A DNA stretch of 64,000 bases from Hexactinellida sp. DTS-2022 (taxonomy: Eukaryota; Porifera; Hexactinellida): positions 372,001 to 436,000 of the forward strand of contig JAPNXP010000009.1 of NCBI GenBank assembly GCA_028753945.1, in the 5' to 3' direction. How positions within the stretch are numbered: the first letter of the stretch is position 1; every line of letters starts with the position of its first letter. The notes below the pieces were generated by a model. It was not told the origin of the DNA and made no database searches. It worked only from the letters and a program-made list of their open reading frames with translations. Both the position numbers and the translations under genes were made by a program. This document shows positions 28,092-61,200 of the stretch, one piece after another.

Positions 28092-29462
28092 ATGTCTCAG
28101 ATTGAGAAGTCCGATATAGTGCGTGTGTTCAGGGGTCCGCTTGTCCACAGTCCCCTGTTGGGAGAGGTGGCCATATCGCACTCGCTCCTGGGCGTAGACG
28201 CCGAGGGGAAGATAGCGTTCGTGCGGCCGCTCCAGGAGCTGGAGGCGGTGCGAGCGGAGTTCGGGTTTCCGGAGAGCTGCCTGGTGCAGCTGTCCCCCTC
28301 TCAGTTCCTGGTGCCCGGGTTCGTGGACACACACCTCCACGCGACGCAGTTCCCCAACCTGGGGCTGGGGCTGCACCTGCCGCTGCTGGAGTGGCTCGCC
28401 GCGTACACCTACCCGCTGGAGGCCCGCTTCGCGGACGCCGCCTACGCCAGGCGCGTCTTCCGCGAGGTGGTCCGACAGACGCTGGTGGCCGGCACCACCA
28501 CGGCCTGCTACTACACCTCCGTCCACGCGGAGGCGAGCCGGGCCCTGTGCGACCTCATGCTGGCGGCCGGACAGCGGGGGCTCGTGGGCAAGGTGTGCAT
28601 GGACCGCGACTGTCCCTCCTCCCTCCGCGAGACCCTCGAGAGCGGCCTTGCGGGCAGCAAACAGCTGATGGCGCACATCGCCCAGCTGGGCTCGCCGCTG
28701 CTCGCGCCCGTGCTCACGCCGCGCTTCGCACTGGTCTGCTCTCGCGAGAGCATGTCCGCCCTGGGGCGGCTCGCCCGCCAGGAGCTGTGCCGCGTGCAGA
28801 CGCACATCTCCGAGAGCCGCGCGGAGGTGGCGCGGGTGAAAGAGCTCTTCCCCGAGGCGCCCTCCTACGCAGAGCTCTACCGCAGCTGCGGCCTGCTCAC
28901 GGAGCGGACCGTGCTCGCGCACGCGGTCCACCTGACCGACCAGGAGCTGCGGCTCTGTCGCGAGGAGGGCGTCGGCATCGCCCACTGCCCCGTCTCCAAC
29001 TTTGCGCTGCGCAGCGGGCTCCTGGACTGCCGGGACCTGATCGAGAGAGGCCTCAAGCTGGGACTCGGCTCGGACGTGTCCGGCGGCTACGCGGCGGGCA
29101 TGCTCGAGGTGATGCGACAGACGCTCCTCGCCAGCACCTGTCTCGCATTCCAGAGTCGGGACCCTGACTACCGGCCCCTCGACTACCGAGAGGCCTTCCA
29201 CCTGGCCACGCTGGGCGGCGCCCGGGTCCTGGGGCTGCAGGGGCAAGTCGGCACCCTCGAGGAGGGAAAGGAGTTCGACGCTCTGCTCGTGGACATGCGC
29301 ACTTCCCCCGGGCAGTGGGCGCTGCTCGCACAGCTGTCCGTCTCGGAGCTCTTCCAGCGGTTCTTCTACACTGGCGACGACAGGAACATACGGGAGGTGT
29401 ACGTCAGGGGACGGAAAATAGATACCAACGAACCGTGGGCCAATCAAATCACTTCCGATTAG
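28092..29462 (+). CDS. Guanine deaminase, copy 1 (intronless)
   Basis: 456 aa, the size of animal guanine deaminases, which hydrolyse guanine to xanthine and ammonia in purine catabolism in the cytosol. The amidohydrolase zinc site is complete: DTHLHA (H81, H83), QTHISES (H238), AHAVH (H277) and GSDVSGG (D328). No intron, and strikingly GC-rich compared with the AT-rich flanks. The protein differs from copy 2 (59533-60894) by only five substitutions inside the shared block. The shared sequence starts at CAGATTGAGAAGTCC, three codons in, and ends at ATACCAACGAA, so the first codons and the last dozen (including the stop) are unique to this copy. No poly(A) tract or target duplication was seen. 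Start chosen at the only ATG before the conserved block. Confidence 0.95.
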   Translation: MSQIEKSDIVRVFRGPLVHSPLLGEVAISHSLLGVDAEGKIAFVRPLQELEAVRAEFGFPESCLVQLSPSQFLVPGFVDTHLHATQFPNLGLGLHLPLLEWLAAYTYPLEARFADAAYARRVFREVVRQTLVAGTTTACYYTSVHAEASRALCDLMLAAGQRGLVGKVCMDRDCPSSLRETLESGLAGSKQLMAHIAQLGSPLLAPVLTPRFALVCSRESMSALGRLARQELCRVQTHISESRAEVARVKELFPEAPSYAELYRSCGLLTERTVLAHAVHLTDQELRLCREEGVGIAHCPVSNFALRSGLLDCRDLIERGLKLGLGSDVSGGYAAGMLEVMRQTLLASTCLAFQSRDPDYRPLDYREAFHLATLGGARVLGLQGQVGTLEEGKEFDALLVDMRTSPGQWALLAQLSVSELFQRFFYTGDDRNIREVYVRGRKIDTNEPWANQITSD

Positions 29463-30730
29463 GCATATTTTTATTTATTCCGATTAATTATTATATAATT
29501 ATTGGTTTATTTCCGAAAAGGAATTTCCATTTCTTGTTTATAATCAGGGAATTTGGGACCATGACAGGATCATTTCTATTACCTGAATATTCATTTCCTA
29601 TTTTAAAGTCTCCTTATTTGGCACTCTTTATTTGATGTGTTACATTTTATGTTGCTCCATGGTTACCATATAGTTATGTTGGCATTCATAACATAGAGTC
29701 TCTTTATTTGTTATTTCATCGACTTTATTCTAACCAATCTGTTATGATATACCGGTATCTGGTTAAGCGGAGTCGACTGTATATCTGTAAGTATTGTAAC
29801 TTAGGAATTATATGTTTACTTCTTTTACTTTAAAACTAGCACTTTATTCTTCTAACCACTGCTTTTGTTTTGGTCACTCCGCTTGAACACATTTGGAAAA
29901 CTACTTAAGCTGTATATAATATATATTGATTCTGTGTACATTTATACCACAAAAGGTAGGTCATAATTAATCAAGATTCCCTAACTATACTTGAATACTT
30001 ATTTGACCACAAATAAATACAGTAGATTCTCGTTAATCCCCCTAGCCCAGCGATTCCCAACCTTTTTCAACTGTGGACCCCCTATAGTTTGTATCAAACG
30101 TTCTGTGGACCCCTCCCATTGACCGTAATACAAATTTTGAGATCTTGTGACCCCAGGTTGGGAACCACTGTCCTAGTCTATACAAATGCATGTAAAATAC
30201 TCCGGTTTATACGAATTTCCGGATAATACTTCCGTCTTAACGAGAGTCTACTGTAATAACGCATAACGTCATTGAGTATTCGGTATTTTGTGATTTGTTG
30301 TTGTAATTAAATCACAAATTCTTGTATGCATCTTGGAAGGCTTCATTGCATGATTTATTTCTTGAAATACCATTTTTTGATTACTTTATTTTCACAACTT
30401 TTTCTATTTTTATTTTTTTGGGCTGTTACCTGAATTTTGTTCTGTAATTTTTTTTTTTAAATTATTGCAAATATAGAACATCTATATTATTAATATTACT
30501 ATTACTATTGAAAAATAATAGTGACCCAAGAAATATTATAAATATGATAAATAGTGTGTGTCATGATAAATTTGTTTATTTTGACTCAACACGTTCAAAC
30601 AATACACTTCTACTATTGTTTACTAAAAACATTTTCCTATAAATACAAACAATTAGTGTCAATACCATACAAACCTCACATAACTAACAGACACAAACAT
30701 ACATTTATCCACACGAGAATGCTATTATAA
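29463..30730. other. Intergenic gap guanine deaminase 1 to FZR1
   Basis: Holds a family E fragment near 29755-29783 (AAGCGGAGTCGACTGTATA) and the composite element at 30018-30255. From 30256 to 30730 it is AT-rich presumed promoter DNA of FZR1, without a motif I can name. Confidence 0.5.
30018..30255. mobile_element. Family A MITE with nested hAT-type element
   Basis: Outer MITE ends: TACAGTAGATTCTCGTTAAT and CGAGAGTCTACTGTA. The inner element (30048-30170) has hAT-like ends CAGCGATTCCCAACC and GGTTGGGAACCACTG, flanked by an imperfect 8-bp duplication CCCTAGCC / TCCTAGTC. That end sequence and 8-bp target are known for hAT elements. Confidence 0.75.
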
Positions 30731-32338
30731 ATGGACCCTATTTACGAACGCCGACTCTCCCTAAGGGGTACCAAGCTACAAACGCCCCCTTCTTCCCCCC
30801 TAACCCCCAGGTTCAAAACCCGTACCCCCCAGCGTCCCTCCTCCCTCGGAAAGAGGACCGCCACTCACACATTTAACTCACCACCCGCGATTCGCCGGAA
30901 CCTAAACCTGTCCCCCCCCGAGCTCTCCCCCTCGAAGCGACCGGTGACTGGCGACCGGTTTATCCCAGTGAGGTGTCGGCCCCTAACCAGCATCCTATCC
31001 TACACTGAGAACGAAACCCGCGCCTCTATAAAGCCCCCTTCCAGCCAAACCCCCTCTCTGGCCCGCGACCCCTCTCCCGACTCGCACAAAGAGGCTGTCA
31101 CATACAACTGTCTCCTCCGAAACGAGATCCTCGGCTCGGACATAACAGACCTCCCGGTCTCGGGCTCCCTAGGCTCAGAAGGCAAGTGGGGCATGTCCCC
31201 CTCGCGGCGGCAGAGCTGTCCCTCCATCCTCCACTTCCGGTCCAGCCTCTCCCGCCCCGGGTCCCTGTACTCTCCCACAGCGTGCTCCCTATCCCCACTC
31301 ACGCCCTCCTCGCAGAAACTGCTCCTCTCTCCGAAGCGCGTCACAAGGAAGATATCCAAAACACCTTTCAAGGTGTTGGACGCCCCAGAGCTGCAAGACG
31401 ACTATTACCTAAACCTCCTCGACTGGTCCGCGAACAACATGCTGGCTGTCGGCCTAGGAACCTCAGTGTACCTTTGGAATGCGGCGAACAGCCAGGTGCA
31501 CAAACTGCACGATTTCCAGGGAGAGGGCGACTGTGTGACGTCAGTCAGCTGGGCTGAGTCCGGTTCCGCCCTATGTGTGGGCACCCGAACAGGTGTAGTC
31601 AGCATATGGGACGTACAGGCGAGTACACGTGTGTCTAGCTACCTACGTCACGTGGAGAGAGTCAGCAGCCTAGCTTGGAATAACACCTCAGTTTGTTCCG
31701 GGTCCCGCGACAAGGCTATCTACCAGTGGGACACACGGGCCGCCTCGGGGGAGGGCCCGACCCGGAGTCTCAAGTTCCACACTCAGGAGGTGTGTGGCCT
31801 GAGGTGGTCAGCTGACAAACTCCACTTAGCGTCCGGGGGTAACGATAACCGACTCTTGATTTGGAACGAGCACGGCTATGCGCCGATACACCGGTTCCAG
31901 GAGCACACCGCCGCGATAAAGGCGCTCGCGTGGTCCCCTCACCAGTACGGTCTGTTGGCCACTGGCGGAGGGACGCAGGATAAAACCATCCGCTTCTGGA
32001 ATGTGACTACCGGTCAGCAGTTGAGTCAGATCGATACCGGGTCTCAGGTTTGTAATCTCTGCTGGTCGCTGCATAGCCAGGAAATAGTGAGTACGCACGG
32101 GTTTTCACAGAACGAGATTCTGATTTGGAAATACCCATCGCTGCTCCAGGTTGCGAAGTTAACCGGTCACGCGAACCGTGTTCTCTACCTGTCGCTTTCT
32201 CCCGACGGACAAACTATAGTCACAGGGGCCGGCGACGAGACGCTCCGCTTTTGGAATGTGTTTAGTAAAGCGTCCGCTCCAAAAGAATTCTGTTCCCCAC
32301 TTCAAGAAGCGATCTCTTGCAACAGTAACTATAAATAA
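30731..32338 (+). CDS. FZR1: APC/C co-activator Cdh1 (Fizzy-related, FZR1)
   Basis: 535 aa, intronless. The N-terminus has the C-box DRFIPVR (residues 75-81), which docks Cdh1/Cdc20 proteins on the anaphase-promoting complex, and LLRNEILG. RKISKTPFKVLDAPELQDDYYLNL leads into a seven-blade WD40 propeller (about 215-520) with Cdh1-typical GSQVCNL, STHGFSQNEILIWKYPS and GAGDETLRFWNVFSK. These match Cdh1 better than Cdc20, so it should activate the APC/C in late mitosis and G1. The expected C-terminal Ile-Arg tail is absent: the frame ends CNSNYK, and I find no convincing splice to an IR-coding exon downstream. TP and SP sites in the N-terminal 110 residues suggest the CDK control known for the family. 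Confidence 0.94.
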   Translation: MDPIYERRLSLRGTKLQTPPSSPLTPRFKTRTPQRPSSLGKRTATHTFNSPPAIRRNLNLSPPELSPSKRPVTGDRFIPVRCRPLTSILSYTENETRASIKPPSSQTPSLARDPSPDSHKEAVTYNCLLRNEILGSDITDLPVSGSLGSEGKWGMSPSRRQSCPSILHFRSSLSRPGSLYSPTACSLSPLTPSSQKLLLSPKRVTRKISKTPFKVLDAPELQDDYYLNLLDWSANNMLAVGLGTSVYLWNAANSQVHKLHDFQGEGDCVTSVSWAESGSALCVGTRTGVVSIWDVQASTRVSSYLRHVERVSSLAWNNTSVCSGSRDKAIYQWDTRAASGEGPTRSLKFHTQEVCGLRWSADKLHLASGGNDNRLLIWNEHGYAPIHRFQEHTAAIKALAWSPHQYGLLATGGGTQDKTIRFWNVTTGQQLSQIDTGSQVCNLCWSLHSQEIVSTHGFSQNEILIWKYPSLLQVAKLTGHANRVLYLSLSPDGQTIVTGAGDETLRFWNVFSKASAPKEFCSPLQEAISCNSNYK

Positions 32339-33468
32339 CAGAGTAAGAGCTTCTATCACTTGCTTTGCTAAATATTTCTTTACTTTTACTACTAATCTGA
32401 TCTACTTTTCCAGATGTTGTATTGTTATTGTTGTTGTTGTTGTTTGTTTCTCTATCATATTATTATGTTGTAGGTTATATTGCAAGTTGTGTTGTACTTC
32501 TTATGAACCTGTATGTAAGGACAATTTGTTTGTTTGTTTATTGTTGTTTGTCTATATTACAAATAATATCGAAGTAGTTTGTGTTACGTTTTTAGGCCGG
32601 ACAGACTTTATCATTTCCTTATAAGGAAATACTTTAAATACCATCTTGCCTGAATAGTTGTTGGGAGATTATACATTTATTTTCATAGATTCTACGTAGT
32701 ATTTTTATTTTATCACATAAAACATACCATGGATATATTAGATAGTTATTTAATTTTAATTGATTAGTTAACAGTTAACACACAATTTTCTTATATTGTT
32801 GAGGGTTCATCAAATATAATATTTCGAACTTTCCTATTCGATTTCCCAAAAAACCGTTATTTGCCGATATTCGCCTCCGATAAGAGCATCTATTCTGCTC
32901 ACAACTTGACTGTATTTATACTTTTCGTGCTACTGTGCAGGTGTTGCTATCTGTATCACAGACAGAATAGCAGATGTTTGTATGCAGGTGTTATTCTCTG
33001 TATATTCTAGTATAGTTCCACTTATGTGAACACCTGTGACATACATACTCAGGAGTATATAGTATACAATTTACAACAAGGAATTAGTTTTAAATTTTAC
33101 ACTCTAAATTCCCTCTCGAATTTTAGATACAGTATATCAAAAATGAAGTTTTGTGATTTTTCGGTATATCTTCCTTTTTCGGTTGAAATTCTGTGATTTT
33201 ATTTGGAAAGATTGGTTTAGTAACAAACAGGATGGAATGGCATAGTGTATTACTAACGACTCTATTATAAATAAAGCCATTTAATGTAGCTAGCTATCCG
33301 ACCATCTGATTATCTACAGAAGCCAGGGTAGTTTGGAAAGTAGAAACCTCTTTCAATTCAATACAATACAATATAATATAATTCTATTATAATAAGCCCA
33401 GTTAGAGAATATTCTAACTGAGAGAGTGAGGTCTGACGTCTGCGTTATTACTTGCTATTATTGTGTTA

Positions 33469-33613
33469 TCATATAACCTCGTTAGTAGGAACACTATTTC
33501 AGTCCCCTTCAAAGCCTTTTCAATACAAATGATATTGGTTAATACGAATTCCGGAAAAAGGCGAACATATTTACAAGGTCCCCTGGTGCACGTACTAACG
33601 AGGTTCTACTTTA
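33469..33613. mobile_element. Family A MITE
   Basis: AACCTCGTTAGTAGGAACAC at the left, CCCCTTCAAAGCCTTTTC in the middle, ACGAGGTTCTACTTTA at the right. Confidence 0.7.
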
Positions 33614-33699
33614 CATTATTTATGTTAATTTCTAAATGGTCAAATGTGGTACATTTAACACTAAGTTTGTTCACATTGTCCTTACATTAATACTGCTAT

Positions 33700-33862
33700 A
33701 TTGGGCCGTTCAAACGTTGCGTAAAATCCCAGGAAAATTAATCCCCCCTCCCTATGTCACGCTTTTTGGACCATTTTGTAATACAAAAGGTGTTTAGTCA
33801 CACATTAGTTAACCCCCTCCCCCTTAGAAGCGTTACGTAACGTTTGAACGCCCCATTTAATA
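33700..33862. mobile_element. Family J element
   Basis: GGGCCGTTCAAACGTTGCGT at the left and AAGCGTTACGTAACGTTTGA at the right: the most symmetrical copy of this family in the window. Confidence 0.7.
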
Positions 33863-33869
33863 TATAGAT

Positions 33870-33981
33870 GTACCTCGTTAATACGAACACCAACGGACGG
33901 TAAAATGTTATTCGCTTTATCTGGAGTTCGTATTAACCGGAGTAGTAATGCCCATTGAATAGACATTGTAGGGACCTGATT
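33870..33981. mobile_element. Truncated family A MITE
   Basis: Left half only (ACCTCGTTAATACGAACACC to TGTAGGGACCTGATTTT). The right half is replaced by the tandem array before the V-ATPase c'' gene. Confidence 0.6.
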
Positions 33982-34110
33982 TTATTATATACCCATATAC
34001 CAGTTAGCTCTCTCATTATTATACACCCATATACCAGTTAGCTTTCTCATTATTATACACCCATATACAGTTAGCTCTCTCATTATTATACACCCATATA
34101 CAGTTAGCTA
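33982..34110. repeat. 33-bp tandem repeat immediately upstream of V-ATPase c''
   Basis: Four units of TTATTATACACCCATATAC...GTTAGCTCTCTCA with a 33-34 bp period. The array ends 16 bp before the ATG, so it must lie in the promoter or 5' UTR. Confidence 0.85.
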
Positions 34111-34125
34111 GTTCACAAGTACGCA

Positions 34126-34746
34126 ATGTATTCCATTCCCTACCAAGTGGCCTACTACACTGCATTCAGTGCAGTGCTTCTAATAATCCTGTACTACAAT
34201 CTAACCGGGTACGGATATCGATTCGACATTGGGTGGGTCCTAGAGTCAATGTCTCCGCTTATATGGGCTGGACTAGGGATTGGTATCGCTATTTCCGTAT
34301 CCGTCATAGGAGCCGCTTGGGGTATATTCATGACCGGATCTACCATCCTTGGAGCGGGTGTGAAAGCGCCTCGCATTCGTACGCGTAACCTGATTAGCAT
34401 AATATTCTGTGAGGCAGTGGCTATATACGGAATTATAATGGCAATCGTGCTGAGTAACAAGATCCAGAATTACGACCAATATAAGGCAGAGACCGACATG
34501 GATTATTACAGAATTCAATTGTTCGCCGGTTACTCAATTTTCGGGGCGGGGCTGACTGTCGGTTTTACGAACCTCGCCTGCGGCATTTGCGTCGGACAGG
34601 TCGGCTCCGGGGCGGCTCTGGCTGACGCTCAGGACGGTGCGCTATTTGTCCGGATCCTAATTATCGAGATATTCGGGAGTGCGATCGGTCTTTTCGGAGT
34701 TATAATCTCAATAATACAAAGTGCTGGCGCCCAAATGACTCCATGA
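34126..34746 (+). CDS. ATP6V0B: V-type ATPase subunit c'' (V0 proteolipid)
   Basis: 206 aa, intronless. It forms part of the membrane c-ring of the proton pump that acidifies endosomes, lysosomes and secretory vesicles. Five hydrophobic segments match the c'' layout (one extra N-terminal helix compared with subunit c). [23 protein letters not shown] and [18 protein letters not shown] carry E96, and [11 protein letters not shown] plus [14 protein letters not shown] carry E181. Both acidic residues sit in membrane helices, as expected for proton carriers. The start is the ATG just after the tandem array; the length agrees with the family. Confidence 0.96.
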
Positions 34747-34904
34747 TAGTGTATATTGTATATAGAGATGTTTAGCTGTTATAACGGGATCTCTGTTTGG
34801 TGTATTTTGTTGTTATTTACTTGTTCTTTATTATTGTTTGTTAGAGATATTCATATACACACATACAGAGCAAATTCCCTACTAATCATTTGTAAATTAT
34901 ATAT

Positions 34905-34975
34905 TAATACGAACGTATAAAACGAACAAATTCAACGGTCCCTCTATTAACGAGAGTACCTTGGATATTTTATTG
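34905..34975. mobile_element. Family A MITE fragment
   Basis: TTAATACGAACGTATAAAAC and GGTCCCTCTATTAACGAGAG, downstream of the V-ATPase gene. Confidence 0.5.
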
Positions 34976-35085
34976 GTAATATGGAATGTTAGAAAGTATT
35001 CATTGTCCGAACTAAACCGGAACCTAGTTATTATAAAGCACATTCCAAATGTATGATCCCTTTTCCCTGATACAAATACTTTTAA

Positions 35086-36606
35086 TTAATGAGTCTTATT
35101 TCTGATAACCGCATCTTGATGGGTTGTAAGTTTGTTAACTTTCTTCACTATACACTTGTGTAGGCACTTTGGTGTACAACTTGGTATAAGAATAACAAAC
35201 ACTATGAGCCATACTAACCTCAATACAACGGACACATTTAATGACACCCAAATAGGGAGTGTGTTTATGGCTGTGTCTAGTATAGCTTTACAAGTAGTGA
35301 GATTCCCAACTGTGTTTTGCCTGTAAGCTAACAAGGTTGTGTTGTAGAGTTGTATTGTAATAGCGCTGTTAATATTAACACAGATTATGTGTTCTCTAAT
35401 AAGTTCCAAATAAGTGCTTTCTAAAAGCACCAACACGCCTAGATTAATACCCAGCAAAGTGAAGGTTATACTGAAGAAGAATGCGTATAGTAGTAACCTC
35501 TTTTCTAAATCTGTCAATTCTGTTCTTCGTCCGGTTAGGCTCTTAGCGCGTAGTGACACCAAACGGAGTTTCGTTAGAGCTACGATTGCGAGTGTAATTA
35601 CTATTCCGGCATTGATTGATAGTAGTAATACGAACATAGTTAGAAATACTATAGGACCACTCACGTACACTTGTTGTGATTGATAATTCCCTGCAAAAGG
35701 TGATTGCGGATTAATAATACAAACAATTGTAATTAGGATGAGAGGAACAACTAAACTTATGGCGACTTGAACACTGAATACAACACGCTCTCTCGTCACT
35801 CTAAGCGGTAGAAATATTACTAGCAGGATATTTATAAACCCAGTTATTATCCAATAGAACGTGGATATAAAGAAGAAATAGAATAAAGCGCCTATTACGT
35901 TAGTTACTATTCTTCTGTTCCCAGGATTTGTAACCTGTTCAAACATGTGAGCCAATAGGTACAGCTGTCCTTCTGTGTTCCTATCGCAGAGCAATCGCTC
36001 CCTCCCCAGAATATCTATGGTAGTGTTAGTTACGAATATTCCCAAATTGGAAAGAACTACCATAAACAGAGATGCGCGTGTAACCTGGAATTCACAGCTG
36101 TTATTCTTTGTACAGTCTAAATAGGTAGCGACTAGCCAGCCAATCAGCGTGAGCACACTCATAACTAGGCCTATAGCACTTATTGATAGAAACAGGATTT
36201 GTGTTAGGAGAGTTAGGTTTGTCTCAGTTGGGTCCCAAGCACACGGGGGGTAACAAATAGACCCCTTGGGTTCATATATAAACTTGTTCTCACAGTCTAT
36301 CGATATGATTGAATAGTTAGTTATATTGTTAATGTTTAAAGGGGGTAATTCGTCCGGGAGTGAGTTTATTCTTGCCTCGAATAATCCTTGTGAACTTCGT
36401 GAAGTATTATATGTTGTTATGACAACCAAAGTGATAGCAAAGGGCAGGAATACTATTGTCCATATGATGATGATAATAACAACAACAGTAACAATACAAA
36501 TATATTTACTTCTCAAGTTTGTTTGTGTCTCTTTTGTTTGTTTGTTTTCCTTTTCATTGGTTTTATTTTCTCGCATTTCTATCAGATCAGTTCCGTTTCT
36601 ATTCAT
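35086..36606 (-). CDS. Seven-transmembrane protein resembling class F (Frizzled/Smoothened) receptors, no CRD
   Basis: 506 aa, single exon. A polar N-terminus is followed by a very hydrophobic segment (about 35-66), which looks like a signal anchor, then a short Cys-containing extracellular stretch ending GSICYPPCAWDP, and seven further hydrophobic helices. Class F-like features, by eye: CYPPC just before TM1, a conserved-looking Cys in GRERLLCD after TM2, YFFFISTFYWIITGF in the TM3 position (Frizzled has YFFSMASSIWW), and a basic loop followed by LEKRLLLYAFFFSITF before TM6. No cysteine-rich Wnt-binding domain is encoded, and the KTxxxW Dishevelled motif is not present after TM7. Several N-glycosylation sequons occur. 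It could instead be another 7TM family, so the class F label is tentative; a multi-pass membrane protein is certain. Confidence 0.5.
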   Translation of the reverse strand: MNRNGTDLIEMRENKTNEKENKQTKETQTNLRSKYICIVTVVVIIIIIWTIVFLPFAITLVVITTYNTSRSSQGLFEARINSLPDELPPLNINNITNYSIISIDCENKFIYEPKGSICYPPCAWDPTETNLTLLTQILFLSISAIGLVMSVLTLIGWLVATYLDCTKNNSCEFQVTRASLFMVVLSNLGIFVTNTTIDILGRERLLCDRNTEGQLYLLAHMFEQVTNPGNRRIVTNVIGALFYFFFISTFYWIITGFINILLVIFLPLRVTRERVVFSVQVAISLVVPLILITIVCIINPQSPFAGNYQSQQVYVSGPIVFLTMFVLLLSINAGIVITLAIVALTKLRLVSLRAKSLTGRRTELTDLEKRLLLYAFFFSITFTLLGINLGVLVLLESTYLELIREHIICVNINSAITIQLYNTTLLAYRQNTVGNLTTCKAILDTAINTLPIWVSLNVSVVLRLVWLIVFVILIPSCTPKCLHKCIVKKVNKLTTHQDAVIRNKTH

Positions 36607-36734
36607 TTAGTTTCAAATGATTTGCTTTTTGTTATTTATAAGCATACTGATTACTAAATTTTATCTGCAGTCTACTCACGTACTAATTAGGGTAATTTGG
36701 TAATTAATTAAACCATTTAAAAACATAGATGCAT

Positions 36735-36902
36735 TATACGATTATACGTTATACGTTCGGGGAGCGTATAATGGACCATATATACGTTAAAATCGTTATA
36801 CGTTATACGTTGTATGGTGATTATACGTTAACGTATGATGCCATTATACGTTCACCTATCGTATAATGGTACCATATATACGTTATACGTTACGTATAAT
36901 GC
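36735..36902. repeat. Cluster of direct and inverted TTATACG motifs
   Basis: More than ten copies of TATACG or its inverse CGTATA lie within about 170 bp, with strong local palindromes such as TATACGTTATACG and ACGTTACGTATAATG. Not coding. Confidence 0.75.
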
Positions 36903-37148
36903 AACTATGTTTAAAAAGGTATCAGTCGACACCCCTTTCATATCTGTTACGGCTGAAAGTGGTTCTTACCGGAACTAATTGTCAGAAACAGCTGATTACT
37001 TCCGTTCATAAACAATTTGTGCGGAAACATAACACATTCTCATATTATACAGAATCCTTCTTCCGAATTTCTAGATTTCCCTCTTACATCAATGCAGTTA
37101 TGGCTTGTATCCTTGGTGCGGTCATTATTATGAGTGCTTGTAATTATA

Positions 37149-37304
37149 TACTATTGGAACTCTCGTTATAACGAAGTGCTTGGTGTAAATTCCTTCGTTA
37201 TATCCGAATATTGGTTATAAGCGGATAATAAAGAATGCATTTAGTGCTCTGGGGAAATCTCCATTTCGTTATATCCGACTTAGTATAACCGGAATCCACT
37301 GTAT
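37149..37304. mobile_element. Family B MITE
   Basis: GAACTCTCGTTATAACGAAG at the left, AATGCATTTAGTGCTCTGG in the middle, ATAACCGGAATCCACTGTA at the right. Confidence 0.7.
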
Positions 37305-37529
37305 TCAGATTATACAAGTTCACAAGTTTTAATTAAGTTGGGCTAAGTTTGCAATTTATGTGTAGTTTTCTCGATCAGCTGATCCAGGTGTTCTTAAATA
37401 GAACCATCTGATTGGGCACATATTTTCAAACATTTAACCATCTCAGTTATTTGAATAGGTCATCATCAGATGTTAAATAATCGAATTAACTCCGTGGCCT
37501 TAATTTTAAATTTTCGATGGATAAATTGA

Positions 37530-37668
37530 TTTTCTAGACCAGGTTTTCTTACATATACATTAGTATTACCATAGATGGCAGGGCTTTTGGTCTACCGAAT
37601 TTATAGACGGTCTACAAATTTTTGGCTTATTCGTATGGGCTTTTATAGACCATCTACAATATAAGGAT
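37530..37668. mobile_element. Family I element
   Basis: CTAGACCAGGTTTTCTTACA, GGCAGGGCTTTTGGTCTAC and TATAGACGGTCTACAAATTT in the order of the copy at 24340-24497. Confidence 0.65.
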
Positions 37669-37684
37669 GCTCAATTTGATTTAT

Positions 37685-38595
37685 AAGTATACTAGCCGAA
37701 AAACCGCCCTCCGGGCGGCATTTTTCTGCTATTTTACTATGCTTTACTACGCTTTGTATTTGGTGTTATGTTTATTTTCACGTTTTAATCGCTTTCTCGC
37801 TGTATTGGGCGTTTGTTTACAATCATTACCAACACGCGAACGTTTTTTAAGTGGCATACGTATAGTTGATAACAGGTTTGGATTTTGTATGTAAATTATG
37901 ACTGAAGTTGGCAAAATATGTCAACCCGATCTATATATAGTCAGGTTCTTTTATGATAAACATTCAAGGGACCATAAATTGTGCATAATAGAGAGACTTC
38001 ATAATAAGCGAACTCAACTTAGTACAAACCCTATGTAAGTTGTTAAATTGGGACCATAAGGCTTGTTCATAATAAAGCAGACGAAATCTTGTTCATAATA
38101 AGCAGACCTGACCGATAGCAATAGGTATGACTATTAAATTGTCCAACAACACAAAGTAAGGTTGAATTTTATTGGTCTATATGTATATTCAATTGTTGTT
38201 TATATTATGGGAAATCATATAGGGAAACTGAACACAAATAACTGATTGGATAAATGAATTTACTCTCGACCAATTAAATTACAGTCTCAGTAGGCATTCT
38301 ATACTGCACACTTTACAATTGATAGAGACATAAAAATCCTTTTATACGAATTGAATGCTAGATGCTAATCCATACTGGAAAATCCTCGAATTTAATTGGT
38401 TAAATATTTTGGCACCTTGGGGATGGAAGATGTGAATATTTTTCTTAAAAATTCCTTATCTGGAGTGGTGAGATAATTCCTAGATAATATGCAAAATTTG
38501 GTACAGATCGGTTCAAGCATCTCAGAGGAGATGTGAGGACAGACAGACAGACATACACACAGACAGACATTGTATTTTATATATATAGATAACTG
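37685..38595. mobile_element. Retroposon-like interspersed repeat interrupted by a family C MITE
   Basis: Begins ACTAGCCGAAAAACCGCCC with a GC hairpin and ends with a segment containing TTTGGTACAGATCGGTTCA, a GACAGACAGACA run and TATATATAGAT. Similar 3' ends recur in invertebrate retroposons and SINE-like repeats, from memory only. A family C copy (37935-38112) splits it. Confidence 0.4.
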
Positions 38596-38687
38596 TATAT
38601 TTTAATAAATTTGTACAAACTGGTCAGTTATCAACGCGATTAACTTGTGTTCGTTCCTTGCTTTCTTTAAACAATTTTCTTGTGAAG

Positions 38688-38827
38688 TCAACTCTGTTAT
38701 AACGAAGTGCTTGGGACCTGTAAATTCCTTCGTTATATCCGGGTATTCGTTATAAGCAAATGAAAATTAATGCATTTAGTGCTCTGGGGGAAAATCTCCA
38801 TTTCGTTATAACCTGAATTCACTGATT
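38688..38827. mobile_element. Family B MITE
   Basis: GTCAACTCTGTTATAACGAA at the left, TTAATGCATTTAGTGCTCTG in the middle, CCTGAATTCACTGA at the right. Confidence 0.65.
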
Positions 38828-39313: not shown

Positions 39314-39409
39314 TTCTGCTTACAGTTCACATATGTTAACTATGGCGTATTTTTAATAGATTTATAGAAACGGTTATTAGTAACTATTTCGCACCAGTAT
39401 GCACTTATA

Positions 39410-50952: not shown

Positions 50953-51330
50953 CAGTCAGGTCTGCTTATTATGAACAAGATTCCGTCTGCTTAATTTGAA
51001 GATTTTTTATTATGAACAAACCCTACGGTCCCAATTTAACAACTTACATAGGGTTTGTATTAAGTTGAGTTCGCTTATTATGAAGTATCTCTATTATGAA
51101 CACAATTTTTGGTCCCTTGAATGTTCAAAATAAATGAACCTGACTGTATAACGAACTCTTTCCTAAACCATTAATTAATATTTCTACTATATTATAAACC
51201 AAATTAATAGATTTGCTACAAACTTGATATGATGGGATTATTATACAGTCAGGTTCTTTTATTATTAACATTCAAGGGGCCAAAGATTGTCTTCATAATG
51301 TAATAGAGACACAATAAGCAGACCTGACTA
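50953..51330. mobile_element. Family C MITE plus a second shortened copy
   Basis: The full copy at 50953-51150 has TACAGTCAGGTCTGCTTATT and AACCTGACTGTATA at its ends. The shortened inverted copy at 51245-51330 has TACAGTCAGGTTCTTTTATT and AAGCAGACCTGACTATAA. Confidence 0.7.
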
Positions 51331-51636
51331 TAATATATGCAGTGCGCGATAATAAGATAAAATATTTTTACTGAAATGAGAATATTTACAGTTGTAAAGT
51401 TGGAATTTGCAAACGAATCTAACTAAGAACTATTTTATGCGAACTAGTATTTCTACTCTGATTAACAATCTAATTAAATACCAAAGATGAATTCTGATTA
51501 TTGGAGAAATTAAATAAGAAAAGGAGGAGTTAAGTAATTACTCTAGCAAGGAAAATATAATTTTTCTATAGCAACAAACTATTTGTTAGAACAGTACTTA
51601 TTTGATCTTGCTATTATATGATCCCGCTCTAATTAC

Positions 51637-51748
51637 AGTAAACTCTCGTTAATACGACAGGGGATTTGTATAGCTAGGGGAATTAAACCTTGTACTCCTT
51701 AACCGATATATCTCTTATCATTATTCGTACTAACGAGTCTACTGCATA
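51637..51748. mobile_element. Family A MITE
   Basis: TACAGTAAACTCTCGTTAAT at the left and ACGAGTCTACTGCATA at the right. Shortened interior. Confidence 0.6.
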
Positions 51749-51777
51749 TTGTATTTAGAGTGGAATTAGCTCACAAA

Positions 51778-51906
51778 ATGCCAACTTCTGTTGACGGGTC
51801 GGCTAGTCAAGCTTCTGTTCTTGAGAAAAGAAACTCTCCTCATCCCTCAAAAGATTTTCTACACTTCAAAGCTCCCTCTAAGTTTGTTGTTATTTATCTT
51901 ATTTAA
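51778..51906 (+). CDS. Possible short ORF or first exon
   Basis: A 42-codon reading frame, MPTSVDGSASQASVLEKRNS onward to a TAA, has a base composition more gene-like than its AT-rich surroundings for its first 36 codons. No family resemblance, no clear donor and no partner exon. It may be chance. Confidence 0.15.
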   Translation: MPTSVDGSASQASVLEKRNSPHPSKDFLHFKAPSKFVVIYLI

Positions 51907-53111
51907 TTTGTTATTTAATTAATACAACATGTTAGTTACAGTTTAATTCACTTTTAAGTTTAACAGGATTTGTGCACATAATTTTCCTAATCATTCTTTG
52001 TTCTCTCAATTATTTAATTTACCAATAAGGTAAACGAACAAATCACTAGATTTGATTAGAGATTTTCCTGGAAATTTCAGCATTCAGGTTTTATTTATGA
52101 GTCAAATATGTGATTTTATATTATTTAATCAGCAGCCGTTATATATGTAATTGCTAAATTGTTCCAATTAATTACACGTAAATTATATAACATATGGTAA
52201 TCACAATTTTCAGCTGAACATAATTAATATTTATTAAATGAAATATAATTGAAAAAGTATTTATTTTTTCGACAAGCTAACAGACTAATTTAAATTTTTT
52301 ACTCAATTCAAGAATATTATAGGAATGTTATTGTTTTATAGTTTTATTTTAATTTTATTTTAATTAAAATTATTTGGACTTGAGCACGATGTAAGGAACA
52401 TTATTTCAGGTCCCATGATTATTCCAAATAGAGAGAATTAACTTTATATACTACATATATGATCCCCTGGAATTCAGTGGACAATTAACAAATTACGTAT
52501 ACTATTACATTGTTAGTTGAAATTGGTTGAAATAGTTGATTATAGGAATTACTGCATTTAATTAGTTAAACCTTCTAACAGATCCATTTGAGAAAGTAAT
52601 TTACATTTAATTAATTAACCGTCAATGAATTGATATATTAGTAAGTTCAGTACTGTATAATCAATTCTAATTTACTTGGAAGAGATACCATTTCCATGGA
52701 ATTTAATTATTGTTAATTAATTAATTTTAATTAACACACCACTACACCGTGTAGCGTAACTGAAATTTTAATTATTACGCGTTGAATTATCTTGAATTTT
52801 CTTTTATTAATTTGAGGTTTGAATGATGTGTATGTTGTTAGTAAACTTGTTACAGAATTAAATACATTGCGTTTCATGAGGGAATAAGATTACATTGTGG
52901 AGATAACACAATTGGGATCATGATTTAAATAAATAACTGAGTTTTAATTGCATATAAATCGAATTGAGCAGCTGTCCACAACTTTAATTATTTAGAAAAT
53001 AAAATAATTTTATTCCTAAGTTAAAACACAAAATGCAATCAAAATTAATCGAAAAACAACTGGAATTCATTGGTATTCATCCCTATCTAATTCCTGGTTG
53101 GTCAGTTCACA
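51907..53111. other. AT-rich 3' flank of TRAPPC10
   Basis: No gene or repeat recognised. Expected to hold the TRAPPC10 3' UTR next to 53111, but I could not fix a polyadenylation site with confidence. Confidence 0.4.
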
Positions 53112-53575
53112 TTACGGATGTATAGGCACAACCATGGACGCGGTTGAGTCGTATGCCTGTACGCCTGTTAGTGGCAGCATGGTGTAGGGCACCGCAGCGG
53201 GAGAGGAGCTATCTGAGAACTGAGCGGTTATGTAGCTACTCGTATTGTGCCAGGTGTAGGATTTGAGGGTAAGGGAGAGACTCGGGAGATATAGCTGTCC
53301 GTGGGAAAGCGCGCGGATCTTAAACCTCAATTCCTGACACGCGTTTTTCATCGGCTGTAGTCGCAGTGACCCGGAAACCTCGTTTCCGATTTCCCAAGCG
53401 CCGCTTTCGCTCCTGAGCTCGTACTCCACCTCCACAATGTCGTCTATGGGCGCCTGCCACTGTCGGGGCAGGTCCCGGATGTTACGAATGTTAACGGACA
53501 GCCGGCAGTCCTGGTTCTGTCTGAGGGCAGCGTCCGACAGCTAGAAACAACAACAACAACAACAATAACAACAAT

Positions 53576-53613
<38 letters not shown>

Positions 53614-56600
53614 AATAATAACAACAACAATCCGTGTTCCTATTAACGAGAGTCTACTGTATATTGGTATGTTGGGATAATTATACAGCCGGGTTCGTTT
53701 ATTATGAACATTCAAGGGGCCAAAAGATTGTTAATTCCAGTATATAGAATTACTTGTACAGTATAGAGAGTATACTATACTGTGGAATAACCTTATTAAC
53801 AGAGTCTACTATACTTACCTCCAGTTGAGAGGTTAGTATGAACATGGTTTGCACGTCGCTGAGTCGGAACCTGAACACGTGCTCCAGGGTGGTCTCCTCC
53901 TGTCCCACGAGAGAGTACTGGATCAGCAGCTGGCAGATCTGACTCAGAACCGGGTTGAACTCCTTATCCACCTACACACACATTCCGTAACATATCCTAG
54001 GTTGTCATGGAAATAGTTCGACTAACCAAAATAGAAATACAGTCAAAAAATATCCGTTAATTCGTACTCTCAAGGGAAAATATATTTGGTCGAATTAGCG
54101 AGTATTGAATTGACTGTATGTATTTCAACTAACATTAGTGTTGATAGACCATGAATATGGCAGAAAGCCATAATCCATGGTTCAACAATAAAGTTAGCAC
54201 CTCGGGACCAGGTTGCTTTGACCCGATTATGCGGAGAAATCTATTAACCGGTGACTCTATAAAGCGGAGTCGACTGTATTTCCATTTTTGGTTACAGAGG
54301 AATGCCTACCTGATAAAGGAGTGTCCGGGTTTCCCCCGGGTGTACCAGACAGTGCAACTGCTCCTTGGTCATCAGGGACTTTAGGAGCGAGCTCTGCTTA
54401 ACCTTCATGTCCCGGAGTACAATAGGCAGAGGGGCAGTCGACTGAACAGTTAGCTTTACAAAGGATAGATCCCCACTACTGTATATATCGTATTTGCACT
54501 GAAACGGCATGTAGAACACAAGTGGAATAACCGCACCGTAATCGTGATGCGCTTTCTTATTCACCCATTTACAGGTCGCGGTTAGCTGCAGAACGCACCC
54601 GCAGGAGATCCCGTCCCCGGTCGGGGGGTTCAGCGTGTAGAGACTGTCGGTAGGCAGCTCCACCTCAGTGGGGACTCTTCCCAGGATGTTACCGCTGCTC
54701 ACCGGAGAGTGCATCTTGTTCTCGGCGGCCAGGTTCTCCGGCTTCAGCGCCTCGGGGTCGCAACGTACCTTAGACGGACACAGATTATACACTGTTATAA
54801 CGTACCTTAAAGGATACCCATTAAATACACAGTTATAACGTACCTTATTCAGAATTAACTAAACACACAATGGGGTATAGTAGCACTCGGGAATGGAAAT
54901 ACATGTACAGAAGAACCTCGTTAGTAGGAACACCAGGGGACCGTCAAAATGTGTTCGCTTTATCCGGAATTCGTATTAACCAATATAATTTGTATTGAAA
55001 AGGCTTTGAGGGGACTGAAATAGTGTTCGTATTAACGAAGTTCTACTGTAAGTACGTGTTATCCGAGTGTACATACTAACCGAGTTTACCTACATAGAAA
55101 TGCATACTGCTTTATAACCGAGTTATACTGCATATGTGCTAATTACCTGTAACTGCACTTGGTGCTTCGCCCCTGGCTTTATATCCGGAAGCGTAACCTG
55201 GTATTTATCTCCCTCGAGTCGGAAGTCCCCGCTTAACACCTCTAACAACAACATCTGACTACAGCTGAGCGATATACTGGACCCACACAGGATTATAGTC
55301 TTCCCCTCGTTAAACACGTTAAGTGTGACCTCAGACGGCTTCCCTGCCAGCAGGAATCCGCCCGGACACTCCACAGAGAGGGACGCCTTGGCCTCACAAG
55401 GCACCACCTCCAACTCCTCGCCCGGGAGAGACAGCCCGGTCCTGGGGTCCGCGGTGTGTCGGAACTGCACACACGCGAAGTCGAGAATAACGTCCTCGAG
55501 GTGGTAGGTGCCCGCGGTCCGGCATTTGGTGGAGAGTACTATCCGGTTCTCTCCAGGGACCATGGACACGCCTTTGGCTGAGAAGTAGAAATCGAAGTGA
55601 ACCGACTCCTGTGAGTGGGTTTTGCTTAGTCTCCGTTTGGACCTGTACCGCTCTCCCCCTGACCCTTGTACCCCTGCCCCTTGTACCCCTGTCCCCTCGG
55701 GAACATCGTCCAGAGAGGTGTAGCTGTAGAGACGCGTCCAGTAACCAGGGACGTTAGCGATTGGGGAGAGAAGCGACTCTCTGCCCTGGAAAATCAGTTT
55801 CAGAGAATCTATTACGATCCCAGTCGGGGCCTTATTAACGAGACACAGCGTAAGGGTGATGACGTCACCTGCCTGCCATTCTGTCTTATCGTAGCAGATG
55901 CCGTTAACCGCGAACAGCAGGGAGAACTGAATGGAAATGAGTTCCTTTTCGCTCTCCTCTACTATCTGACTAACGCGCTGTTTGAAGCACTCAAAGAATT
56001 TCTCCTGTGAGTGTGAGCTAAGTATAGGAGGGGTGCACGCTAGGAGCACACAGGTGGTGAGGTACTCGTGAGGAGGGTTGTCCGGACTGTTCTGCGAGGC
56101 CGCTAGGAGGGAGAGGGAGTTGAGACGTAGCACGGGCCACTTGTCAGAGTAGTACAGCTTGCAGGCCTCGGTTAATACGTCCTGCGCCTTCGCAAGGTCC
56201 CGCTTCGCCAGGAGGAACTTTGCGAAGTTCATACTCGCGTGCATGGCCATCCTCTTTCTCCCCGCGTGCTTGAGGGCCCCGATCAGCTGTTCGGCTAGCT
56301 CCACGTAGCTCCGGTTAAACGAGTCCCGCGAGGCGAGCACGTTAAGCAGGTCCTGTGCGCTGCTCGAGGTGTCGCTACTGGTCATACTCCCCCAGAGCTC
56401 TTTGAGGGTCTCACTGCTCTGTGTACCCTCGCTGGATATGAACCCGGATATCTGCCCGAGCGCGTGCAACTTGTACAGCTGGACGTGCCACAGCTGGGCG
56501 CGGACCACCCATTGAGAGGGGCCCTGTCTGTCCGCCGCCAGTTCAACCGAGAACTGCTTAAGCGGGTTTACAGGGTTGTTACTGAGCTGGTCTAGAATAA

Positions 56601-57819
56601 CGTCCAACACGTTCTTACACATGAGATAGCTCCACGCGTCTAGAGATCCCACTGGCAGCTGCAGCCGCATAGAGTGGCTCTCCTCTCCCAAATCCTTGAG
56701 GAGCTTCAAGGCGCGCTGTCCCACGTCCCACGCCTGCCCGAGTATAAATAGGAGCGTCGCTTGTCTCTCGAATATAACTGAGCGCAGCTTGAACAGGCTG
56801 CAGGTTCTGTTCTCGAGTGACGAGTCGTGGCTCTGGTCGAGAGAGAGCGCTATGTGCGGATAATCCAGTAGCACTTCCTGACAGCAATGTTGTAGTGTCT
56901 CGAACCAGCGAGACTTCTTAGCTTTGTTGAGAGCTATCTTTATAATCAGATAGTGTAGCATAACGTCAATCTCGTCATAGGCTAGTAGCGCCGCTTGATA
57001 CATACCCATGTGTTCGTACGCGAAACAGAGCTGTTCCTGCATAAGGAAATAGTGAAAGAAGTTCCATAGGGGCTTATCTTGATCCTCTCGAGTCATGGAG
57101 AGTAGAGTCTCGTATTTGTCTGTTTGGGATATAAAGTACTTCTTCATGCTCGTGAATAGAAACGTTATGAACTCGTTGTAATGCTTTTCTGTTGCCTGGT
57201 CGCCCTTCTCGGGGAGAGTTAGCTGATAGAACTTCTTTGCAAAGGCAGGGTTTTCTGAGGTGAGGTCCTCTTTTATAGTCATTATAACATTGTTGATACT
57301 GCTCTGTGCGTTTTTGCGTAGCGTAGAAGCGTGTTGCGTTACGTGTATTAGAATCCAGTTTTCGTAGCCGAACTGCTCAAGGGTCATAAGCCAGGTTTTA
57401 ATCTCGCTTTTGGTGCTCTGGTTGTACCAGGAAATCTCGTTGGAAGAGGTGAAGAATAGATGAATAAGCGGAGTTCCGAATAAAAACTTTTTGTGGTTAA
57501 AAAAACTACTTTCTAACTTCTCAAATGTTTCAGGCGCGAATTTCTCAAACTTTATTTTACAAGGAAGAAGCGATACATTTCCGTCTTTGTATTTGTCGTC
57601 GACGAAGCTTTGCTTGCACAATTCAGTCTCGAGTTTCGGTTTGAGAAGTCGGAATAGGTTCTCCTCCGTGTTGTACGTAACTAACACCTCTTTAACCTTC
57701 GGTCTGCTCTCCCCCCGGCCCAGGGGCCCTCTGTTGGGGAGGGGACTGTCGTGGAGATTGGCCGTCCGCTGTCTCCGCCCCCCGAACAGCTTAGACAGTT
57801 TCCCTTGCGCCTGAGACAT
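53112..57819 (-). CDS. TRAPPC10: TRAPPC10 (Trs130-like subunit of the TRAPPII complex)
   Basis: Four exons on the minus strand, 57819-55147, 54768-54310, 53971-53819 and 53540-53112, all phase 0, give 1237 aa, close to the size of animal TRAPPC10. Matches to the family by eye include LWNFFHYFLMQEQLCFAYEHMGMYQAALLAYDEID (family: WSFCEYFMVQEELAFVFE...ALVQYDELD), the following helical-repeat region with QATLLFILGQAWDVGQRALKLL, and a C-terminal beta-rich half. TRAPPII acts as a tether and Rab11/Rab1-type exchange complex at the Golgi. The first 45 residues are basic with no family counterpart; the ATG is the first in the frame. Exon 1 alone is 2.7 kb, so most ancestral introns are gone. Confidence 0.93.
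53547..53632. repeat. CAA trinucleotide microsatellite in a TRAPPC10 intron
   Basis: An AACAAC run with a few ATAACA interruptions. On the gene's strand it is (GTT)n directly against the exon 4 acceptor TTTCTAG, so it doubles as the polypyrimidine tract. A fragment of family C follows near 53690. Confidence 0.85.
54196..54278. mobile_element. Family E MITE fragment in a TRAPPC10 intron
   Basis: CTCGGGACCAGGTTGCTTTG to AAAGCGGAGTCGACTGTA; the left end is missing. Confidence 0.6.
54905..55050. mobile_element. Family A MITE in a TRAPPC10 intron
   Basis: ACAGAAGAACCTCGTTAGTA at the left, AAAAGGCTTTGAGGGGACTG in the middle, CGAAGTTCTACTGTA at the right. Confidence 0.7.
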
Positions 57820-57956
57820 GCCTATGGTACTATATATGCGTACTTGTTATAATAGTTATAAATATAAAGTGTTTCCTCAATTAAATACCAGGCGATAGTT
57901 CATTATTAACACCTTTAAAGGTCGCCCCATTTATATTTACCCATTTTATACAGGTT

Positions 57957-58112
57957 TCATCCAGGTGCGTAATTACAAAGGAAACTTTTCTAGGCGCGCG
58001 AAAATCGAGAGATGCTCCCATATACATAATTATCACAAATTACTATTTAGGCGCGTGTGGGTGAGCTCAAACTAAATCTAGGCGCGCAGAAAAATGTGCC
58101 TGTATGAAAGCC
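57957..58112. mobile_element. Family H relative between divergent genes
   Basis: TCTAGGCGCGCGAAAATCGA, GGCGCGTGTGGGTGAGCTC and AGGCGCGCAGAAAAATG in order. It occupies most of the 390-bp divergent promoter region between TRAPPC10 and the gene at 58211. Confidence 0.55.
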
Positions 58113-58210
58113 TGTCCGTATTTACTAAATAGTTTATCGCACATTCTGGTATAAGTATAGAGGCTATATCGAATGGCCTAATAACAAGTGTAACACAATC
58201 CCACTATAGT

Positions 58211-61200
58211 ATGCACTCCAGGTCTAAGCCAACGAGCAGACACGAGTATCTGAGGGACATTAGCGAGTCTTTCTACCAGGATTACACCGGGGGGCACATG
58301 GGGGGCGTAGGGACAGGAGTGAGCACCAAGGGATGGGGCGCGCGACATGATACGGATATCTACAAGGGCAACGCTCTCTGTAATCTGGCACACGACCCAG
58401 GAGCCCCTCACACTGTTGATAAGAAATCCCTTCTCACTCATATATCCACTTGCTACTCCCGCTCCCTCATGCGCTCTCGATCTGCTGTGAGTTTATATGC
58501 GCTTAGCTCTCGTTATAACGGAGTCAAAGGCACCCTTAGGGGCGTTCTAACGTTATGTAAATATACCAAGGGGGAGGGGGGGGGGCAACCAGTGTGTGAC
58601 TGACCACCTTTTATTATTATTTTTTTATATTACAAGCAGGTCAGAAAGCTTGACTAAGGGAGGGGATATCTAATTTCCTGGAATTTTGCGTTACATAACG
58701 CTTGAACGGCACCTTATAACGAAGTTTAATTTACTTAGTTTACTTCGATGAAGCATGTAGTCGAGTAAATTAAACTACTTTAGAACAGTAGAATTTGTTG
58801 ATAATTCCACCCAAGGCAGGGGCGTATACTCGGGATGGGGATTGCCCGGATTGGTAGGGCCATTTATGCTAACTTGCATCATACTTAATAGAAGATGATG
58901 GCTCTTGACAAATTATTGGTAGGGCCATGGCCTCACCAACCCTACCGGAGCCTACGCCTATGCAAGGGAATGGCCAAAAATGGCCATTATGTAAGGTGCC
59001 TGCTACACACAGGTTGATTATATTATGGGAAGTCATGCATGTGGGGACCTATTCTAAGTGGCCGTTATAGACAGGTTCTACCGTCTATAACTTCGTTATA
59101 AGCAGATATCTCGTTATATCCGACTTCGTTATAACGGGAGTTCACTGTACCCCGCTCATCAGCTGTTCACAAGTTGCTGTTGTATTTAGTCCGACACCCG
59201 AGAGAGGATCTGGAGCACTAATATAATAGACGGGAAGAAGGTCGCGTCTAGACCCAGGTCACAGTCCGCGAAAACTTCAAACAAACGAGGTGAGTGCTAG
59301 TAGGCTACTCCATAAATAATCTTATGTATTAGATTACATCATTTTTGCTGTTTTGTCTGTTTGTTTGTTTGGTTGGTTGGTTGGTTGTTTGTTTGTTTGT
59401 TTGTTTGTTTGTTTGTTTGTTTGTTTGGTTGGTTGGTTGTTTGGTTGGTTGGTTGTTTGTTTGTCTGTTTGTTTGTCAAGAAGTGACTGAGGAACTGCGG
59501 TAATAATAATATGTGAGCAATAGACAAATACTCTATTGTGTATCTAATATTGTGTATTCGTTGGTATCTATTTTCCGTCCCCTGACGTACACCTCCCGTA
59601 TGTTCCTGTCGTCGCCTGTGTAGAAGAACCGCTGGAAGAGCTCCGAGACGGACAGCTGTGCGAGCAGCGCCCACTGCCCGGGGGAAGTGCGCATGTCCAC
59701 GAGCAGAGCGTCGAACTCCTTTCCCTCCTCGAGGGTGCCGACGCGCCCCTGCAGCCCCAGGACCCGGGCGCCGCCCAGCGTGGCCAGGTGGAAGGCCTCT
59801 CGGTAGTCGAGGGGCCGGTAGTCCGGGTCCCGGCTCTGGAATGCGAGACAGGTGCTGGCGAGGAGCGTCTGTCGCATCACCTCGAGCATGCCCGCCGCGT
59901 AGCCGCCGGACACGTCCGAGCCGAGTCCCAGCTTGAGGCCTCTCTCGATCAGGTCCCGGCAGTCCAGGAGCCCGCTGCGCAGCGCAAAGTTGGAGACGGG
60001 GCAGTGGGCGATGCCGACGCCCTCCTCGCGACAGAGCCGCAGCTCCTGGTCGGTCAGGTGGACCGCGTGCGCGAGCACGGTCCGCTCCGTGAGCAGGCCG
60101 CAGCTGCGGTAGAGCTCTGCGTAGGAGGGCGCCTCGGGGAAGAGCTCTCTCACCCGCGCCACCTCCGCGCGGCTCTCGGAGATGTGCGTCTGCACGCGGC
60201 ACAGCTCCTGGCGGGCGAGCCGCCCCAGGGCGGACATGCTCTCGCGAGAGCAGACCAGTGCGAAGCGCGGCGTGAGCACGGGCGCGAGCAGCGGCGAGCC
60301 CAGCTGGGCGATGTGCGCCATCAGCTGTTTGCTGCCCGCAAGGCCGCTCTCGAGGGTCTCGCGGAGGGAGGAGGGACAGTTGCGGTCCATGCACACCTTG
60401 CCCACGAGCCCCCGCTGTCCGGCCGCCAGCATGAGGTCGCACAGGGCCCGGCTCGCCTCCCCGTGGACGGAAGTGTAGTAGCAGGCCGTGGTGGTGCCGG
60501 CCACCAGCGTCTGTCGGACCACCTCGCGGAAGACGCGCCTGGCGTAGGCGGCGTCCGCGAAGCGGGCCTCCAGCGGGTAGGTGTACGCGGCGAGCCACTC
60601 CAGCAGCGGCAGGTGCAGCCCCAGCCCCAGGTTGGGGAACTGCGTCGCGTGGAGGTGTGTGTCCACGAACCCGGGCACCAGGAACTGGGAGGGGGACAGC
60701 TGCACCAGGCAGCTCTCCGGAAACCCGAACTCCGCTCGCACCGCCTCCAGCTCCTGGAGCGGCCGCACGAACGCTATCTTCCCCTCGGCGTCTACGCCCA
60801 GGAGCGAGTGCGATATGGCCACCTCTCCCAACAGGGGACTGTGGACAAGCGGACCCCTGAACACACGCACTATTTCGGACTTCTCAATCTGCATTATTAT
60901 TATTGGGATGTGAATACTTTTGAGTATTTATTGCTTCGTGGGTTCAATATTATCCATTCCTTAATTAGTGGAATGTATCACGTGAATAATGTTTAGTTCC
61001 AAAGGTAGATAGTATGTAAAGAAATGATGTTTACAAATTACATTAGAAAAGGTGTTGCAATAACTATCTGTTCTGTCAATAGGAGAGTCACGTGAGATAG
61101 GGAGTGACGTCAAGAGGTTCCTGGACTCTCGCACGCAGGAGGAGCGCGGACAGATCTACAAGTACTTACAGGAGAAAGCCTTAGAGAGCAAAGAGGCAGA

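Follow-up and report, generated by a model that had tools for sequence, protein, structure and literature searches.

Introduction

In Drosophila, the Amy genes form palindromic pairs whose concerted evolution is described as confined to the coding sequence, with flanks that appear independent of each other (PMC3924832). For yeast duplicates in which homology is detectable mainly in the coding region, pairs that arose by whole-genome duplication, coding-restricted conversion is stated for almost all cases on the basis of a personal communication cited in the review, according to which the restriction most likely results from purifying selection on coding DNA (PMC3924837). In mammals, the concerted regions of the pairs BMP8A/B, DDX19A/B and TUBG1/2 are reported to have a raised GC content, and GC3 is significantly higher in two of these three pairs (PMC2720389). 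According to the Drosophila review, GC might also promote conversion instead of resulting from it (PMC3924832).

Here, we describe two guanine deaminase genes, copies A and B, which are located in opposite orientations and with about 30 kb between them in a 64,000-nucleotide stretch of contig JAPNXP010000009.1 of Hexactinellida sp. DTS-2022, referred to as the window. Judging from the window, the genome is intron-poor and animal-like. Like Amy-p/Amy-d and Hsp70Aa/Ab of Drosophila, as these are described in the review, A and B are linked inverted paralogues; unlike them, they encode another enzyme in another genome, are 30 kb apart with genes in between, and B is probably nested in an intron (PMC3924832). 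The case of A and B is known from one genome, and the interspecies proof in this comparison lies on the side of Amy and Hsp70 (PMC3924832). The yeast pairs resemble A and B in that homology is mainly coding, but differ in their origin by genome duplication (PMC3924837). BMP8A and BMP8B are likewise inverted, at a distance of about 235 kb; however, the mammalian pairs contain introns, which are converted as well, and the evidence presented for them comes from several species (PMC2720389). By analogy, the guanine deaminase pair most likely works like these Drosophila, yeast and mammalian conversion pairs, and the process itself is already known. A search of a literature collection found no paper that combines guanine deaminase with gene duplication and gene conversion.

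Two guanine deaminase genes share a coding block

The two genes and the parts into which they can be divided are:

28092..29462, + strand: guanine deaminase copy A, single-exon open reading frame of 456 codons, GC3 0.89
28098..29432, + strand: shared block in copy A, 1,335 bp, 99.18% identity (blastn), 11 mismatches
29433..29462, + strand: private 3' end of copy A, last nine codons (PWANQITSD) and stop
59533..60894, - strand: guanine deaminase copy B, single-exon open reading frame of 453 codons, GC3 0.89
59557..60891, - strand: shared block in copy B, 1,335 bp, 99.18% identity (blastn)
59533..59556, - strand: private 3' end of copy B, last seven codons (YTILDTQ) and stop

Both open reading frames are intact and match the guanine deaminase profile TIGR02967 over its full length with 414.3 bits for copy A and 413.5 bits for copy B, the cut-off being 375.4 bits. 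The best PDB match of copy A is the guanine deaminase 2uz9 (365 bits), which we take to be the human enzyme. Copy A was aligned to 2uz9, and both translations contain THLHA, THIS, LAHA and GSDVSGG, presumably the HxH, H, H and D metal-site motifs of the guanine deaminase/amidohydrolase superfamily. Profile score and metal-site motifs thus predict both copies to be guanine deaminases of this superfamily. A C-terminal stretch, GDDRNI..VYV.G, is common to copy A and 2uz9, and a similar stretch occurs in the yeast enzyme. In a single-protein scan of contigs, bacterial matches were found at 15 or more loci; a recent bacterial origin is unlikely, since those listed are 26-37% identical. Horizontal transfer from a GC-rich bacterium was provisionally rejected as the main reading, as the bacterial matches listed are distant and the best solved relative is 2uz9.

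A blastn comparison of the window with itself aligns the shared block without gaps. It is the longest non-self match among those listed, followed by one of 689 bp in a tandem array, which argues against a match by chance. The block runs from CAGATTGAGAAGTCC to ATACCAACGAA, as the initial annotation had it. Its 11 differences are scattered over positions 18, 204, 420, 431, 511, 743, 1059, 1068, 1148, 1149 and 1275 and cause five residue changes (D/E, A/G, D/N, K/R and Q/R), the number counted previously; to the four synonymous codon differences already named (TCT/TCC, AGT/AGC, CCT/CCG and ACT/ACA), a fifth, ACC/ACT, can be added. By the NG86 method, dN of the core is 0.0056 and dS is 0.0159, and 4 of 271 fourfold sites differ. 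At its 5' edge, the block abuts the start codon in copy B (ATG followed by CAG) and begins one codon after it in copy A (ATGTCT followed by CAG); at its 3' edge, it ends seven codons short of the stop in B and nine in A. The C-terminal residues and the stop are therefore each gene's own, as had been claimed; the start codons, which had also been regarded as separate, may share a common origin and be offset by a 3-bp indel, because an in-frame ATG stands at the block edge or one codon before it.

Unrelated flanks and the origin of the pair

Outside the block, the two loci were said not to match. This is borne out by the alignments: on both sides and at all five lengths (30, 60, 120, 300 and 600 bp per side), the flanks of A and B score no better than shuffled sequence (p 0.16-1.0, 20 comparisons). 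Homologous flanks, which the initial annotation had regarded as evidence against its own reading, were thus looked for and are absent. It had also asked for a genome-wide copy count: DNA and protein searches of the 112-Mb genome found guanine deaminase in two places only and hence no third full-length source copy, although a heavily intron-split one, or one in a stretch outside the sequence searched, could escape such searches.

Near-identity at synonymous sites is thus combined with unalignable flanks, which is one of the features of concerted evolution confined to the coding region. We consider it probable that A and B go back to an old inverted duplication, and that ectopic gene conversion has homogenised their constrained coding core, whereas flanks and terminal codons drifted. 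A single intronless guanine deaminase would have been duplicated long ago, with the copies inverted, and flanks and unconstrained terminal codons would have diverged to saturation. Purifying selection may have held the core similar enough for ectopic conversion, the repair of one copy from the other, which would have erased synonymous differences repeatedly; linkage and inverted orientation probably aid this exchange, and mismatch repair that favours GC may have lifted the GC3 of the core. Sharp edges at the limits of the coding sequence are expected here, because conversion tracts stop where homology stops. Conversion of the coding block, as proposed in the initial annotation, is the best-supported reading because identity is restricted to the coding sequence, the flanks are unrelated, no third source was found and an actin gene, L040, provides a parallel (see below). 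This reading falls short of proof: in a pair known from one species, a single event of core copying looks the same inside the block, and the age of the duplication is judged solely from the divergence of the flanks. Residual flank homology, a possible trace of an old duplication, was not found, which counts against this history. The phenomenon is also less exceptional than it had appeared, since concerted evolution confined to coding sequences is already documented in the reviews on Drosophila and yeast (PMC3924832, PMC3924837).

Two further features of the window bear on the origin of copy B:

59290..61082, + strand: probable 1.8-kb intron of a putative host gene, holding copy B in antisense orientation, splice sites read by eye
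59342..59497: stretch with an AAAC/CCAA-type microsatellite, past the 3' end of copy B, with matches at many other genomic places

The putative intron has a phase-1 donor (CGAG followed by GTGAGT) and an acceptor (AATAG followed by GAGAG), and two open exons are joined in frame when it is removed; neither of these putative exons matches an NCBIfam family. The near-identity of the core could in principle stem from a recent segmental duplication or from an assembly duplication of the locus. This is very improbable, given the absence of flank homology, the 11 differences between the copies and the inverted position of B inside a distinct, probable intron of consistent phase, which also argues against an assembly duplicate. 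The earlier argument that an ordinary duplication carries its flanks along holds if the duplication is recent, but not otherwise.

A recent retrocopy was likewise rejected. It should show the UTRs of its source, poly(A) and a target-site duplication; A and B have no UTR or flank in common and no target-site duplication above shuffles, and only an A-rich microsatellite was found, which starts about 35-55 bp 3' of the stop of copy B. The stretch 59342-59497 might represent the remains of an A-rich tail, or it might just be a simple repeat. An origin of copy B by old retroposition is possible, because the AAAC-type microsatellite might be a decayed A-rich tail. That the guanine deaminase genes have no introns is in itself no sign of retroposition, since the genome is intron-poor and long single open reading frames are common.

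The initial annotation offered the capture of a bare coding block as a new exon as its alternative to conversion. Only the 1.3-kb core would have moved recently, for instance as a truncated cDNA, by template switching or by break repair with filler DNA, and the host site would have supplied start, tail and stop. Such an event would leave a single core block that is sharply bounded and, as here, differs by 0.8%, copy B lies inside the probable intron of another gene as an insertion would, and the A-rich microsatellite about 35-55 bp beyond its stop could be read in the same way. However, the two breakpoints would have had to lie only a few codons away from the two ends of the coding sequence, the first at most one codon past the ATG and the second at most 30 nt from the end of the open reading frame, and an in-frame ATG would have been required at the edge, the chance of which is about 2% per codon in the flanks of A and B. 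Target-site duplications do not exceed those in shuffled sequence (p 0.785 for B and 0.28 for A; 200 shuffles each). Retroposition begins at poly(A) and would therefore bring along the last codons and the 3' UTR. Capture is disfavoured by the coincidence of the breakpoints with the ends of the coding sequence, and we regard it as unlikely.

Transport as cargo of a mobile element was rejected, too: all four flanks were searched genome-wide, and no sign of it is visible, because three of them (both 5' flanks and the 3' flank of A) match only themselves and the fourth matches elsewhere only within 59342-59497. The latter, the 3' flank of B, has at least 79 other matches in the genome, all within this stretch among those listed. 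Since simple repeats and very common words are passed over in this search, a flank matching only itself is no proof of rarity.

Copy A lies upstream of an open reading frame called FZR1 and downstream of an AT-rich, repeat-laden stretch; from 10.4 to 28.0 kb of the window, there is no open reading frame of 130 codons or more. Long single open reading frames in the window encode, among others, a Cdc20/Fizzy-type WD40 protein (FZR1; 30731-32338, single exon, GC3 0.69), a kinesin and a TRAPPC10-like protein. The genome is rich in uninterrupted gene families, and its kinase-bearing open frames reach up to 3,418 codons. As judged from self-match offsets, units of about 77 bp are tandemly repeated at 1964-2698, in an array that adjoins KIF2-like kinesin open reading frames. 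Dispersed repeats of about 130-200 bp, SINE-like in size and roughly 80-93% identical, occur on both strands at many places between 316 and 51150.

Actin genes of the same genome

The genome contains 75 matches to the actin family, 32 of which extend over model positions 6-403 and are free of stops; the others comprise fragments and stop-bearing copies, and actins are found on many chromosomes. Thirty actin loci were fetched, oriented and compared. The flank test used 18 of these loci, namely L029-L047 except L031, whose frame is interrupted by a stop; L048-L058 were left out, most of them being truncated or more divergent. For flanks of 300 bp, the 99th percentile of 150 shuffles served as the threshold. 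Pairs that differ in length were anchored at their stop codons, which puts the fourfold counts of L045 off in this test. Among the 54 pairs with a fourfold difference below 0.15, both flanks exceed the threshold in 26, neither does in 24, and four are mixed; these pairs do not represent independent events but mainly reflect two flank classes, which have the coding sequence in common but not the flanks. Near-identical coding sequences with unrelated flanks are therefore not confined to guanine deaminase in this genome, but not all actin pairs follow this pattern.

Between L036 and L040, 6 of 173 fourfold sites differ. Their flanks do not match above the threshold, although 31 of 38 bp adjoining the start and 11 of 12 bp that follow the stop are alike. 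The flanks of L040 belong to another class than those of L036 and align with those of L045 (155/171 and 136/158), L044 (28/30 and 135/143) and L042 (65/74 and 94/108). In MAFFT alignments, the coding sequence of L040 differs from that of L036, the closest of 11 copies compared, by 44 nt, from L044 by 63, from L042 by 79 and from L045 by 91; L040 and L045 differ at 19 of 158 fourfold sites. Coding sequence and flanks of L040 thus point to different closest copies. Sixteen diagnostic sites separate the classes, each being uniform within three class-I copies and within three class-II copies; across them, L040 has the pattern 1112222211.22221, with six class-I states, nine class-II states and one that is neither, arranged in runs. 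Partial conversion restricted to the coding sequence would leave such a mosaic, which nevertheless does not prove it, as the sites are unpolarised and the class-I states may be ancestral. The actin family can be regarded as a partial replication, within the same genome, of the pattern seen in A and B.

Within class I, L036 and L037 differ at 13 of 296 positions of the 5' flank, 11 of 98 of the 3' flank and 14 of 174 fourfold sites, and L033 and L036 at 5 of 288 and 10 of 94 flank positions and 3 of 179 fourfold sites. Flanks and fourfold sites diverge similarly, so that class-I pairs fit plain duplication, which counts against conversion as the main reading. The actin L031 (G000:C12:388424-389542) has an internal TGA and is 98.5% identical to L030, with a match that extends beyond both ends of the coding sequence, which suggests a recent pseudogene.

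The homogenising template might also have been a transcript, with cDNA of one copy recombining into the other and the exchange limited to transcribed homologous sequence. Edges near the limits of the coding sequence, both in A and B and in some actin pairs across chromosomes (L036 on C1, L042 on C15), would fit, as would the abundance of uninterrupted gene families; DNA-templated conversion, however, predicts equal edges without special machinery, and we consider a cDNA template improbable. It is an equally long shot that dispersed uninterrupted genes such as guanine deaminase and the actins are homogenised as whole coding units, perhaps cDNA-templated, with GC-biased repair driving their cores; if true, coding sequence and regulatory flank would evolve as separable modules.

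Base composition of the shared block

Measured in steps of 60 bp, the GC content ranges from 0.25 to 0.38 outside the block, except for 0.52 in the upstream step of B that lies farthest out, and from 0.53 to 0.82 within 300 bp inside each edge. A and B thus represent a clean two-copy case, in which the limits of near-identity coincide with those of the coding sequence and with a GC step from about 0.3 outside to 0.53-0.82 inside. The GC3 values of the copies, 0.888 and 0.892, are the two highest among 49 nonredundant open reading frames of at least 250 codons from the window and other loci of the genome, a sample enriched for actins and HSP70s, the latter family having entered this comparison only; the other 47 have a mean of 0.591 and a maximum of 0.798. 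GC3 forms a dome along the block, with 0.70 and 0.77 in its outer 30 codons versus 0.92-0.93 inside (permutation p 0.0002 for each copy). Arginine is preferred to lysine (0.83-0.85 versus 0.36-0.67 in seven comparison genes).

GC step, GC3, dome and arginine preference fit GC-biased conversion, and it is plausible, albeit unproven, that GC-biased repair raised the GC3 of the core. The suggestion of the initial annotation that conversion was GC-biased gains from the rank of the two GC3 values of 0.89 and from the dome; however, these tests are weak, because one of the seven comparison genes, FZR1, also has a dome (p 0.001), the actins are not GC-extreme (GC3 0.63-0.72 in 12 copies compared) and the substitutions are unpolarised. 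The pair is useful for asking whether composition promotes conversion or conversion lifts GC, a question left open in the Drosophila review (PMC3924832). Antisense open frames pass through both copies, at 28044-29447 on the - strand (467 codons) and at 59788-60996 on the + strand (402 codons); frames of this length are expected from the very GC-rich codon usage.
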